Shown here one piece after another: positions 20,252 to 42,100 of a stretch of 64,000 bases of DNA. The first letter of the stretch is position 1; each line of letters opens with the position of its first letter. The DNA comes from Thermus caldilimi (GTDB lineage Bacteria; Deinococcota; Deinococci; Deinococcales; Thermaceae): positions 854,796 through 918,795 of the forward strand of contig NZ_CP038452.1 of the NCBI RefSeq assembly GCF_004684245.1. Direction: 5' to 3'. The notes under the pieces are model-generated. The model was not told the origin of the DNA. It did not search any database and was given only the letters and a program-made list of their open reading frames with translations. The position numbers and the translations under genes were made by a program.

Positions 20252-20281
20252 TTGACACGGGATGAGCCCGCGGGCTAGCAT
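20252..20281 (+). promoter_or_regulatory. Promoter of the mod operon
   Basis: TTGACA (20252-20257) and TAGCAT (20276-20281) are separated by 18 bases on the plus strand. The start would lie near 20288, giving an untranslated leader of about 105 bases before modA. Confidence 0.7.
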
Positions 20282-20287
20282 CCCCTT

Positions 20288-20392
20288 AGCCTCCGAGCCC
20301 GGAGAGACCCCCAGGGCCTTCCGGGCCGGGCTTATGGCCCCGGGGTAGCGGGGGCAACTCCGCTGCCTGCCGTGGTTGCAAAGGAGGTGGCA
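20288..20392 (+). promoter_or_regulatory. Structured leader of modABC, possible Moco riboswitch
   Basis: The leader is GC-rich and foldable. Visible helices are CTCCG-AGCC-CGGAG (20291-20304), GGGCC/GGCCC (20323-20327 with 20336-20340), and GGTAGCGG/CCGCTGCC (20344-20351 with 20360-20367). The ribosome-binding site AAGGAGGTGG is enclosed by TTGC/GCAA, a possible sequestering hairpin. Molybdate transporter genes are a classic context of the molybdenum/tungsten-cofactor riboswitch. The family assignment is inferred from context and shape only. Confidence 0.45.
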
Positions 20393-21286
20393 ATGACCAA
20401 GTCCGGATGGCTTCTCTGGATTTTAGCCGTGTTCCTTGGGTTAGGCCCAGCCTGGGCCCAGCCCAAGCAGGTGCGGGTGGTAGCGGCCGCCGACCTGCAG
20501 TACGCCCTAGCCGACGTCGCCAAGGCCTTTGAAGCGAAAAACCCTGACATCCGCGTGCTTCTCTCCTTCGGTTCCTCGGGTAAGTTCTACACCCAGCTCA
20601 CCCAGGGCCTCGAGGCCGACCTCTACTTCTCCGCCGAAAAGATCTACCCCGAGCGCCTCGAGAAAGAGGGCCTGGCGGAGCCCGGCACCCGCAAGCCTTA
20701 CGCCACCGGGCGCATGGTCATCTGGCTGGACCGCAGGCTGGGCTTAAACCCCAACCCCGAGGCCCTCAAGGACCCCCGCATCACCCGCCTGGCCATCGCC
20801 AACCCGGTGCATGCCCCTTACGGCCGGGCCGCCGTCACCCTGTTGGAACACTACGGCCTCCTAAGGCGCCGGGCCGATGCCCAGGTCCCCGGCCTAAGCA
20901 AACCCTTTTCCACCCTTTCCTGGGAAGAAATCCCTTGGGAGAGGCTTACCAGGGGTGTGGAGGCCTACTGGGATATCACCCCCTTGCGGCAAGGCAAGCC
21001 GAACTTTGAACTGGTCTATGGCGAGAACATCTCCCAAACCGCCCAGCTGGCCCTGACCGCTACCCAGGCCGGCATCCTGGCCCTGTCCCTGGCGGTGCAC
21101 GAAAGCCTCTCCCGCCCTGGCGTGTACTGGCTCGCCCCTTTGGAAAGCCACCTCACCTTGGAGCAGGACTATGTGATCTTGAAAGGTCGCAGGCGCCCCG
21201 AGGTCTTGGCCTTCTACACCTTCGTGGGAAGCCCTGAGGCGCGAGCCATTTTTAAGCGCTACGGCTTCCTTCTCCCGGGGGAGTAG
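20393..21286 (+). CDS. modA: Molybdate ABC transporter substrate-binding protein
   Basis: 297 residues, about 40 longer than usual. A signal peptide (LWILAVFLGLGPAWAQ) is followed by the ModA core: VRVVAAADLQYALADVAKAF, FGSSGKFYTQLTQGLEADLYFSA and LVYGENISQTAQLALTA. Residues from about 168 to 215 (RRRADAQVPG...YWDITPLRQGKPNF) interrupt the normal helix-strand passage before LVYGENISQ and look like an insertion. The start ATG 20393 has AAGGAGGTGG upstream. It captures molybdate or tungstate in the periplasm for ModBC. Confidence 0.9.
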   Translation: MTKSGWLLWILAVFLGLGPAWAQPKQVRVVAAADLQYALADVAKAFEAKNPDIRVLLSFGSSGKFYTQLTQGLEADLYFSAEKIYPERLEKEGLAEPGTRKPYATGRMVIWLDRRLGLNPNPEALKDPRITRLAIANPVHAPYGRAAVTLLEHYGLLRRRADAQVPGLSKPFSTLSWEEIPWERLTRGVEAYWDITPLRQGKPNFELVYGENISQTAQLALTATQAGILALSLAVHESLSRPGVYWLAPLESHLTLEQDYVILKGRRRPEVLAFYTFVGSPEARAIFKRYGFLLPGE

Positions 21287-36801: not shown

Positions 36802-38085
36802 CTAACGGGCGGCCAAGGACGCCAGAAACTCCTTGTTGTTCTTGGTACGCCCCAAACGGGCCAGGAGCATCTCCATGGCCTCCGCCGGGTCCATGTCCGC
36901 CAGGACCTTGCGCAGAAGCCACATCTTGTGCACCACCTCCTCGCCCAAGAGGAGCTCCTCCCGACGGGTCCCGGACTTCAGGATGTCGATGGCCGGGAAG
37001 ATGCGCCGCTCCTCGAGGCGGCGGGAAAGGTGGAGCTCCATGTTGCCCGTCCCCTTGAACTCCTCAAAGATCACGTCGTCCATGCGGCTTCCCGTTTCCA
37101 CCAGGGCGGTGGCCAGGATGGTGAGGCTTCCCCCACCCCTTATGTTCCTGGCCGCTCCCAAGAAGCGCTTGGGGAAGTAGAGGGCAGCGGAGTCCAAACC
37201 GCCCGACAGGGTACGGCCCGTGGGCGGGGTTACCAGGTTGTTGGCCCGGGCCAGGCGGGTGATGGAGTCCAGGAGGATCATCACGTGCCCCCCATCCTCC
37301 ACGATGCGCTTGGCCCTCTCATGGACGAACTCCGCCACCCGGATGTGGTTCTGGGGAGGTTCATCAAAGGTGCTGGCGATGACCTCAGCTCCCTGGACGC
37401 TTTCCCGGAAGTCCGTGACCTCCTCGGGGCGCTCATCGATGAGGAGCACGATCACCTTGATGTCGGGTTCATTCTTCAGGACCGCATTGGCGATCTTCTT
37501 GAGCAGGGTGGTCTTGCCCGCCTTGGGCGGGGCCACGATGAGCCCCCGCTGCCCCCGGCCGATGGGGGCCAGGAGGTCGATCACCCGGGTGGAAAGCTCA
37601 TCGGGGGTGGTCTCCAGCCGGATCTGCCGGTCAGGGAACTGGGGGATGAGCTCGTCAAAGCGGGGCCGGTTCTTGGCGGCCTCGGGATCCAGATCGTTCA
37701 CCGCCTCCACCTTGAGGAGGGTGCCGTAGCGCTCGTTCTCCCGCGGAGGCCGCACCCGGCCCACGATATAATCCCCGCTCCTCAAGGCATACTGCCGGAT
37801 GAGCCCCGCAGAGACGATGGCCACCCTGGATTCCAGGTTGTATAGGTTCTCGGTGATGAACCCATAGCCATCCGGGCTGATCTCCAGGTAACCCTTGACC
37901 AGCTGCAAACCCTCCCCTTGGGTCTGCCGCTCCAGGAGGGCCATGATGAGCTGGTCCTTCTTCATGCGCTTGTAGTTCTCAATCCCCGCTTCCTGGGCCA
38001 GCAGGTGGAGCTCCGGAAGGATCTTGGCCGAAAGCTCCTGGTAGGTGAGGGGCGCTTCTTGTTGGGTATCCGCTTTTCTCCTCAT
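36802..38085 (-). CDS. rho: Transcription termination factor Rho
   Basis: 427 residues. The RNA-binding N-domain includes [13 protein letters not shown]; Walker A is [11 protein letters not shown]; Walker B is [15 protein letters not shown]; the Q- and R-loops are in [20 protein letters not shown] and [12 protein letters not shown]. Rho is a hexameric RNA helicase that ends transcription. It overlaps the transaldolase stop by four bases, so the two are co-transcribed. Confidence 0.98.
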
Positions 38086-38752
38086 GGCTTGACCTTCTCC
38101 CAGTCCTCCATAAAGCGTCTAAGGCCTATGTCCGTCAAAGGATGCTTAAGGAGCTGCTTGAAGACCGCATAAGGCATGGTGGCGATGTCCGCCCCCAAAA
38201 GAGCCGCCTCCGTCACATGGCGGGGGTGGCGGATGGAGGCGGCGATGACCTTGACCGGCAGGTTCTGGACCTGGATCAGCTCCACGATCTCCCGCAAAAG
38301 CTCTCCCCCGTCCCAGGAGATATCGTCCACCCGGCCCAGGAAGGGGGACACATAGGCCGCCCCCGCCCGGGCTGCCAGAAGGGCCTGGTTGGCGGAAAAG
38401 ATCAAGGTCATGTTCACCTTCACCCCTGGGTGGAAAGGCGCTTACAGGCCTTCAGGCCCTCCTCGGTGGTGGGCAACTTAACCACAATGTGGGGGTGGAT
38501 GGCGGCAAGCCGCAGGCCCTCCTCCACCATGGCCTCGGCCTCCAGCGCGGTCACCTCCGCCGACACAGGCCCCTTCGCCACCTCGCATATGGCCCGTAGG
38601 TGGGCGAAGAGAACCTCCTCGGTCAGCTTTGCTCCTCGGCCCGCATACTCCTTAGCCACCAAAGTGGGATTGGTGGTAACCCCGGAAAGTACCCCCCAGG
38701 CAGCGATCTCCCGTATCTCCTCCAAGTTGGCGGTATCCAGGTACAGCTCCAT
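38082..38752 (-). pseudogene. tal: Transaldolase/F6P-aldolase family (TalC-like), one frame break
   Basis: The first 110 residues read [30 protein letters not shown] and [13 protein letters not shown] (with the Schiff-base lysine), then hit TGA at a four-G run (38423-38426). The next frame resumes [22 protein letters not shown] to the normal C-terminus. One added G restores a 223-residue enzyme of family length. ATG 38752 has AGGAG five bases upstream. Transaldolase moves a three-carbon unit in the pentose phosphate pathway. The break is probably a sequence error. Confidence 0.9.
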
Positions 38753-38791
38753 GAGCACTCCTTTTGTCGGGAAGTGGACCGGCTTAGCTTG

Positions 38792-38822
38792 ATTCTAGCA
38801 GACCCAGCCCAGGCGTTGTCAA
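38792..38822 (-). promoter_or_regulatory. Promoter of tal-rho
   Basis: TTGACA (38817-38822) and TAGAAT (38792-38797) on the minus strand, spacing 19, a little long. The -35 overlaps the -35 of the divergent ileS leader promoter through the palindrome TTGTCAA. Confidence 0.6.
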
Positions 38823-38844
38823 GGAAGGGGAGGGCTGCTAGCAT
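38816..38844 (+). promoter_or_regulatory. Promoter of the ileS T-box leader
   Basis: TTGTCA (38816-38821), 17 bases, TAGCAT (38839-38844) on the plus strand. The start would be near 38851, about 310 bases before ileS. Confidence 0.65.
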
Positions 38845-38850
38845 GGGCTT

Positions 38851-39147
38851 AGCCGCCAACGGGGGATTTTACCCCAGGGGGCATGAGCTGTAAAGGCGAG
38901 GATGGGGAGAGTACCCCTTTCCGATAGCCTAGAGCGAGCCGGGGAGGGTGGAAGCCCGGTGGTGAGGAAAGGCGGGAAGATCACCCCGGAGCCGCGGGAG
39001 GAAAAGGGCCGGTCCCTGAGTAATGCCCGCCGGGTGCGCCCGTGATCGCGTGGCAATGAGGGCCTGGAAGGTTCTTCCAGGAAGCGCGGTGGTACCGCGG
39101 AAGCCGTTAGCGCTTTCGTCCGCGCCCCAAGGGCGCGGGCGTTTCTT
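38851..39147 (+). ncRNA. T-box riboswitch leader of ileS
   Basis: The 408-base gap before ileS holds no gene but a T-box leader. The antiterminator core GCGGTGGTACCGCGG (39086-39100) matches the conserved T-box sequence; its TGGT would pair with ACCA at the 3' end of uncharged tRNA-Ile. A terminator follows at 39118-39147. The Stem I region around 38928-38995 (AGCGAGCCGGGG...GGTGGAAGCCCGG) contains ATC (38980-38982), an Ile codon and the probable specifier. Uncharged tRNA-Ile should thus switch ileS on. Confidence 0.88.
39118..39147 (+). terminator. T-box-controlled terminator
   Basis: CCGCGCCC-CAA-GGGCGCGG followed by GCGTTTCTTT, just downstream of the T-box antiterminator and 14 bases before the ileS start. 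The antiterminator's 3' arm lies immediately upstream, as expected for alternative folding. Confidence 0.8.
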
Positions 39148-39160
39148 TAGGGAGGAGCGT

Positions 39161-42100
39161 ATGTTCAAGGAGGTCGGTGAACCCAACTTTCCCAGGCTGG
39201 AAGAGGAGGTTCTGGAGTTTTGGAAGCGGGAGAGGATCTTTGAGAAAAGCGTGGAGAACCGTAAAGGCGGGCCCCGCTACACCGTCTACGAGGGTCCCCC
39301 CACCGCCAACGGCATGCCCCACGTGGGCCATGCCCAGGCCCGAAGCTACAAGGACCTCTTCCCCCGGTACAAGACCATGCGGGGCTACTACGTGCCCCGC
39401 CGCGCCGGCTGGGACACCCACGGCCTGCCGGTGGAACTGGAGGTGGAGAAGAAGCTCGGGCTAAAGAGCAAACGGGAGATCGAAGCCTACGGCATCGAAC
39501 GCTTCAACCAAGCCTGCCGGGAGTCGGTCTTCACCTACGAGAAGGAGTGGGAGGCCTTCACCGAGCGCATCGCCTACTGGGTGGATCTCAAGAACGCCTA
39601 CGCCACCCTGCACCCCACCTATGTGGAAAGCATCTGGTGGAGCCTGAAGAACCTTTTCGACCGGGGGCTCCTCTACCGGGACCACAAGGTGGTGCCCTAC
39701 TGCCCCCGGTGCGGCACGCCCCTTTCCTCCCACGAGCTCTCCTTGGGGTACAAGGAGATCACCGACCCTTCGGTCTACGTGCGCCTGCCCCTTAAGGAAC
39801 CGGGGAGGCTGGGCCTGGAAAAGGCCAGCCTCCTCATCTGGACCACCACCCCCTGGACCCTGCCCGGGAACGTGGCCGCGGCGGTGCACCCGGAGTTCAC
39901 CTACGCCGCCTTCCAGGGGGAAGGGGAAGCCCTCCTCTTGGAGGAAAACCTGGGGAAAAAGCTCCTGGGCGAGGAAACCCCCATCCTCAAGACCTTTTCA
40001 GGGAAAGAGCTGGAGGGCCTCCCCTACGAGCCGCCCTATCCCCAAGGGGTGGAGCGGGGCTACTTCGTGGTCCTGGCGGAGTACGTGAGCCGGGAGGACG
40101 GCACGGGCATCGTCCACCAGGCCCCCGCCTTCGGGGCGGAGGACCTGGAAACGGGAAGGCGTTACGGCCTCCCCCTCCTCAAGACGGTGGACGAGGAGGG
40201 CAAGCTTCTGGTGGAGCCTTTTAAGGGCCTCTTCTTCCGCGAGGCCAACCGGGCCATCCTGAAAGACCTCCGCTCCCGGGGGCTTCTTTTCAAGGAGGAA
40301 AGCTACCTCCACAGCTACCCCCACTGCTGGCGCTGCTCCACCCCCCTCATGTACTACGCCACGGAAACCTGGTTCATTAAAAACACCTTCTTCAAAGAAG
40401 AACTCATCCGCAAAAACCAGGAGATCAACTGGGTCCCGCCCCACATCCGGGAGGGTCGCTACGGGGAGTGGCTAAGGAACCTGGTGGACTGGGCCCTAAG
40501 CCGCAACCGTTACTGGGGTACGCCCCTTCCCATCTGGGTCTGCGACACCTGTGGGAAGGAGGAGGCCATCGGCAGCTTCCAGGAGCTCAGGGAAAGGGCC
40601 ACCCACCCCCTCCCCGAGCCCTTCGACCCCCACCGGCCCCACGTGGACCGGGTGGAACTCCGGTGCACCTGCGGGGGCACCATGCGGCGGGTGCCCTACG
40701 TGATCGACGTCTGGTACGACTCCGGGGCCATGCCCTTTGCTTCCTTGCATTACCCTTTTGAAAACGAGGAGGAGTTCAAGGAAGCCTTCCCCGCGGACTT
40801 CATTGCGGAAGGCATTGACCAGACCCGGGGCTGGTTCAACTCCCTGCACCAGCTTGGGGTGATGCTCTTCGGCTCCATCGCCTTCAAAAACGTCATCTGC
40901 CACGGCCTCATCCTGGACGAAAAGGGCCAGAAGATGAGCAAGTCCAAGGGGAACGTGGTGGACCCCTGGGACATCCTCCGGGAGTTTGGGGCCGATGCCC
41001 TTAGGTGGTACATCTACATCTCTGCCCCCCCGGAGGCCGACCGCCGCTTCGGGCCCAGTCTGGTGCGGGAGGCGGTGCGGGATCACTTCCTCACCCTCTG
41101 GAACGTGTACAGCTTCTTCGTCACCTACGCCAACCTGGACCGGCCGGACCTCAGGAACCCGCCCCCTCCGGAGAAGCGCCCCGAGCTGGACCGCTGGCTT
41201 TTAGCCCGGATGCAGGACCTGATCGGGAGGGTGACGGAGGCCCTCGAGGCCTACGACCCCACGCAAAGCAGCCGGGCCCTGCGGGACTTTGTGGTGGAGG
41301 ACCTCTCCCAGTGGTACGTGCGCCGGGGAAGGAGGCGGTACTGGAAGAACGAGGACCCCTTGGACCGGGAGGCGGCCTACGCCACCCTGTACGAGGCCCT
41401 GGTCCTCATCGCCAAGCTCTCCGCCCCCTTCACCCCCTTCCTGGCGGAGGTGCTCTGGCAGAACCTGGTGCGCTCGGTCTTCCCGGAAGCCCCCCTCTCC
41501 GTGCACCTCGCCGACTGGCCGGAGGTGGATCCCCACCTGGTGGACGAGGAGCTGGTGGCCAAGATGCGCGCCGTGCTCAAGGTGGTGGACCTGGCCCGCT
41601 CCGCGCGGGCCAAAAGCGGGGTTAAGACCCGCACCCCTCTTCCCCTTCTCCTCCTCACCGCACCCAGCGCCTTGGAGCGGGAGGGCTTAAGGCACTTCGC
41701 CCCCGAGATCGCCGAGGAGCTAAATGTCAAGGAGGTGCGGGTTTTGGAGCCTGGGGAAGAGATCCTCTCCTACCGGGTGCTTCCCAACCTGAAACTTTTG
41801 GGGAAGAAGTACGGCAAGCGGGTGCCCGCCCTCCGCGAGGCCTTGGAAAGGGAGGCCTCGAGGGTGGCCAGGTCGGTCCTGAAGGGGGAGCCCGTGGCCC
41901 TAGAGGTGGAAGGGGAAACCCTGGTCCTCGCCCCGGAGGAGGTGCTCCTGGAGGCCCAGGCCCCCGAGGGCTACCTGGCCCTGGAGAAGGACGGGTACGT
42001 GGCCGCCCTGGAGGTGCGGGTCACGGAGGAGCTAAGGCTTGAGGGCCTGGCCCGGGACCTGATCCGCCATCTGCAGCAGACCCGCAAGGAGATGGGCCTC

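Follow-up and report, generated by a model that had tools for sequence, protein, structure and literature searches.

The ileS leader of Thermus caldilimi is a canonical T-box that very probably acts by transcription attenuation

How is ileS controlled in Thermus caldilimi? Within the window, by which we mean the whole 64,000-nucleotide stretch of DNA that was analysed, the gene is preceded by a leader that a sequence-only reading had taken for a T-box controlling ileS. When the window was scanned with all Rfam families, the T-box family RF00230 matched positions 38890-39126 (+) with 95.7 bits (E 9.8e-20), against a curated cut-off of 93 bits, and model positions 1-219 of 219 were aligned. The covariance-model search that had been proposed as a check was thus significant, and both the T-box call and its placement in front of ileS held up. 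In a genome-wide search the E-value for the whole genome was 8.8e-22, and no second T-box was found in the T. caldilimi genome with RF00230; with these values and no other genomic match, the features lie far beyond chance. The score is narrowly above the cut-off, which 8 of 50 Thermaceae genomes exceed; most relatives score lower, plausibly reflecting the AT-rich consensus of the RF00230 model. The GC content of the leader is 66%.

We placed the helices in window coordinates from the Rfam alignment together with an alignment of 27 ileS leaders (Table 1). The elements named by the sequence-only reading could each be located: the antiterminator core GCGGTGGTACCGCGG is present at 39086-39100, the ATC triplet lies inside GAAGATCACC at the specifier-loop column of RF00230, and a terminator follows the core, although its U tract is interrupted by a C (TTTCTTT).

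Table 1. Features of the ileS leader and of the divergent control region, in window coordinates
Feature	Positions	Strand	Basis or remarks
P2, promoter-like site for fsa-rho	38792-38822	-	TTGACA-19-TAGAAT or TAGACT in most leaders
Probable ileS promoter TTGTCA-17-TAGCAT, TG before -10	38816-38844	+	Scan
P1, promoter-like site for fsa-rho	38866-38894	-	TTTACA 38894-38889, 17 spacing, TAAAAT 38871-38866
Stem I, long type, GA-rich kink-turn-like base	38896-38992	+	Rfam alignment; helices 1-5 of covariation test
Distal Stem I module	38930-38954	+	Aligned to AGAGA and GGUG consensus of RF00230
Specifier codon AUC (Ile)	38980-38982	+	Specifier column of RF00230; invariant in 27 leaders
Stem II with S-turn strand GAGTAAT (39018-39024)	38994-39030	+	One pair changed on both sides
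Stem IIA/B pseudoknot	39031-39049	+	39031-39034/39039-39042; 39036-39038/39047-39049; by position and sequence
Stem III (CCTGGAAG / CTTCCAGG)	39063-39081	+	Four pairs changed on both sides
Antiterminator	39084-39125	+	39084-39089/39120-39125 and 39098-39104/39112-39118
T-box bulge UGGUACC	39090-39096	+	Invariant; UGGU complementary to tRNA 3' end A73-C-C-A
Intrinsic terminator	39117-39148	+	11-pair stem 39117-39141, U tract 39142-39148; shares CGUCCGCGC with antiterminator
Shine-Dalgarno region AGGGAGGAG of ileS	39149-39157	+	3' of terminator
ileS, isoleucyl-tRNA synthetase, 1043 aa	39161-42292	+	TIGR00392 959.8 bits, cut-off 621.4

Stem I deserves a closer description, as the same reading had likened its GC-rich part to the leaders of other high-GC bacteria and had suggested a different Stem I. 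This is ruled out by the end-to-end alignment with RF00230: Stem I is of the canonical long type, carries compensatory changes, and the GC-rich GAGCGAGCCGGGG...GGTGGAAGCCCGG is simply its distal end. Three pairs of the helix 38914-38922/38966-38975 are changed on both sides among the 27 leaders. The two sides of the specifier loop read AGAGTA and GAAG-AUC-A, the middle helices lie beyond it, and the distal module consists of the AG-bulge strand AGAGCGA (38931-38937) and a terminal loop with GGUG (38944-38954), in which AGCGAG and GGGTG are nearly invariant. The AG-bulge strand and the GGUG loop are the predicted contacts for the tRNA elbow.

Downstream of Stem II, pseudoknot helix IIA and two of the three IIB pairs are invariant; the third IIB pair is broken in 16 of the 27 leaders as aligned, and these often carry an extra loop G that may allow an alternative register. 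In the antiterminator every cell is paired and two pairs are changed on both sides. A purine-rich Shine-Dalgarno sequence stands at the equivalent place in Thermus leaders, and over residues 1-146 the synthetase (IleRS) shares ~97% identity with its counterparts in Thermus altitudinis and T. brockianus. A long open reading frame from 39023 crosses the T-box in the frame of ileS; we regard it as mechanical, because leader length varies slightly among species while the Shine-Dalgarno sequence and the start at 39161 are conserved.

Since the antiterminator and the terminator both use CGUCCGCGC, they are mutually exclusive. Folding of 39080-39128 without the 3' arm of the terminator gives the antiterminator, and with this arm the terminator, at both 37 and 70 °C. 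Model energies of the bare helices put the terminator ahead of the antiterminator by 3.2 kcal/mol at 37 °C and by 4.8 kcal/mol at 70 °C, a predicted preference that suits a switch in which tRNA has to tip the balance.

The tRNA itself was located with the tRNA family and ARAGORN. The genome carries a GAT anticodon on a tRNA-Ile whose 3' end reads ...CGCCC-A-CCA; at the loci of the 30 best-scoring of 47 tRNA genes, no other anticodon reads GAT. The AUC specifier pairs with the GAU anticodon and the UGGU bulge with ACCA; the proposed fit of the bulge to an A discriminator is therefore matched by A73 of the tRNA that the genome encodes. The T-box database paper (PMC7778990) also names AUC as the preferred specifier for Ile.

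Taken together, it is very probable that a canonical full-length T-box, with Stem I, Stem II, Stem IIA/B and Stem III, controls ileS by transcription attenuation via uncharged tRNA-Ile. By analogy with the known T-box family, from which tRNA binding, termination and the isoleucine response of this leader are predicted, the anticodon of uncharged tRNA-Ile(GAU) would pair with the AUC specifier in Stem I while its elbow docks on the distal module. The free 3' ACCA would then pair with the UGGU of the bulge and stabilise the antiterminator, allowing RNA polymerase to continue into ileS. Charged tRNA-Ile could not make the ACCA-UGGU contact, so that the terminator would form and transcription would end near 39142-39148.

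Of the other ways in which such a leader could act, the one that survives best, although we consider it quite improbable, is control of translation by masking of the ileS Shine-Dalgarno sequence. Actinobacterial ileS leaders operate in this way (PMC7583486), and at 37 °C the model fold places part of the Shine-Dalgarno sequence in a weak hairpin with the U tract. However, this pairing depends on CGTTTCTTT and is lost in relatives such as GGGCGTTTTGCTAGGAGGTGG, and the Shine-Dalgarno sequence sits 3' of the 11-pair terminator and U tract, so the terminator precedes the ribosome-binding region and has not been replaced by its sequestration. The architecture of Stem I points the same way: transcriptional T-boxes generally require a long Stem I with an elbow-binding module, whereas translational ones, which are mostly Actinobacterial, usually do without the distal elbow module (PMC7583486), and here Stem I is long and keeps the conserved AG-bulge strand and GGUG loop. 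With a Shine-Dalgarno sequence that follows the U tract and has unconserved pairing, and with a long Stem I, transcription attenuation is favoured.

The leader is widely conserved. A T-box match was obtained in all 50 Thermaceae genomes searched and in 103 of 111 genomes of the order, and the same leader precedes ileS in 26 of 26 other Thermus genomes searched as well as in one genome of a neighbouring genus. Across the 27 leaders of alignment A1, 98.1% of cells pair under the given structure, and 38 cells in 10 pairs are changed on both sides. Shuffled controls gave a mean of 10.9 cells (0 of 500 reached 38) and sliding of the 3' side gave 1-6 cells; the helices are thus backed by compensatory changes well above both controls. 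Invariant pairs, for example in the lower helix of the antiterminator and across most of the terminator, count as neutral evidence in this test, and covariation confined to the terminator is weak, its sequence being nearly invariant. RNAalifold recovers the helices of Stems I, II and III and the terminator unprompted.

These patterns also bear on whether the leader could be a decayed remnant that no longer responds to tRNA. Thermus retains one of the three T-boxes typical of other Thermaceae, which would fit a loss under way in the lineage, but the specifier AUC, the UGGU of the bulge, the S-turn strand and the switch helices are invariant and the stems vary with compensation, which is unexpected in a remnant; we therefore hold this to be very unlikely. 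Least credible of all is an accidental likeness to a T-box, with the hairpin serving as a simple constitutive attenuator or as a site of processing, for although the terminator alone is a strong hairpin, the covariance match is full-length (E 9.8e-20) and the specifier fits the gene in the ileS, valS and glyS leaders of relatives. In those leaders AUC stands before ileS (L046, L051 and L096), GUC before valS (L008 and L023) and GGC before glyS (L047), where the bulge is UGGA; specifier and bulge thus track the downstream gene, as the T-box mechanism requires.

Other Thermaceae genera mostly have three T-boxes (before ileS, valS and glyS in the examples read), one genus has two, and Thermus has that of ileS only. 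The Thermaceae examples comprise glyS (L043, L047, L049), valS (L008, L011, L017, L023) and ileS (L046), an apparent stepwise loss of T-boxes in the family. When N-terminal parts of IleRS are placed in a tree, which is weakly resolved, the sequences from Thermus, from another Thermaceae genus (L046) and from other Deinococcota families (L051, L054-L056) do not group together; replacement of the IleRS gene is possible judging from these sequences, and all of the groups in the tree have a T-box. Elsewhere in the window, the molybdenum/tungsten cofactor riboswitch RF01055 lies at 20279-20402 (+), where it scores 63 bits (cut-off 36). Phage records were also searched and gave no match.

The probable ileS promoter would place the transcription start near 38851. 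TTGTCA-17/18-TAGCAT (or TAGGAT) precedes this leader in 26 of the 27 Thermus genomes; in the exception, G036, a contig end lies close upstream. Interleaved with it on the minus strand are two promoter-like sites directed at the divergent fsa-rho genes, with P2 overlapping the ileS -35 element. All 27 sequences compared, from 26 Thermus leaders and from L042, contain P1, with TAAAAT, TAGAAT or TATAAT as its second box. The TTTACA of P1 complements the T-box 5' end (TGTAAAGG), and the P1 -35 thus falls within the 5' end of the leader, so conservation of this first box may serve only the RNA. The second box would sit in a hairpin loop if a possible hairpin of the leader forms. P1 is a candidate for a working promoter. 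A tentative suggestion, which we think rather unlikely to hold, is that the divergent fsa-rho genes and the ileS T-box have a control region in common, in which P1 fires toward the ileS promoter and transcription of ileS and rho may interfere. The fructose-6-phosphate aldolase gene fsa/talC (38082-38758, minus strand) appears as two open reading frames, with a break near 38420-38426 where four G stand in a row. Almost every Thermus relative with sufficient sequence has a single intact frame of 223 codons, and the split is either a sequencing error in the G run or a strain-specific frameshift.

The leader most likely senses uncharged tRNA-Ile and so provides more isoleucyl-tRNA synthetase when isoleucine is scarce. 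At high temperature, the charging of tRNA would then probably govern Thermus IleRS with RNA as the only regulator, and the leader, as a presumably heat-stable full-length Ile T-box, is a candidate for structural or biophysical work.

Compared with known systems, the ileS leader is an ordinary, well-preserved member of the known T-box family, and T-boxes have already been reported both from its phylum and upstream of ileS; it provides a clean annotation and introduces no new principle. With the long-Stem-I transcriptional type of RF00230 it shares the domains, the specifier position, the UGGN bulge, the antiterminator/terminator switch and the downstream aminoacyl-tRNA synthetase gene, and it differs in being GC-rich, in having AGCGA for the AGAGA strand and in its thermophilic Deinococcota host. 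Its occurrence outside Firmicutes, correctly pointed out at the outset, is not new: PMC2494555 reports T-boxes tied to the ile tRNA ligase in Deinococcus radiodurans and Dehalococcoides, and PMC3766115 describes T-boxes from the Thermus/Deinococcus group, so that these systems share the phylum or the gene. An earlier survey had T-boxes in 1 of 3 Deinococcus/Thermus genomes (D. radiodurans was named), whereas here every Thermus genome searched has one, and the ileS leader of a Dehalococcoidia genome (L096) has the same layout and AUC specifier as the Thermus leader. The translational ileS T-boxes of the Actinobacteria Nocardia farcinica and Mycobacterium tuberculosis likewise share AUC, the Stem II S-turn, the IIA/B pseudoknot and ileS downstream; in contrast, they have a short Stem I without the elbow module and act through the Shine-Dalgarno sequence, while the Thermus leader has both the module and a terminator.
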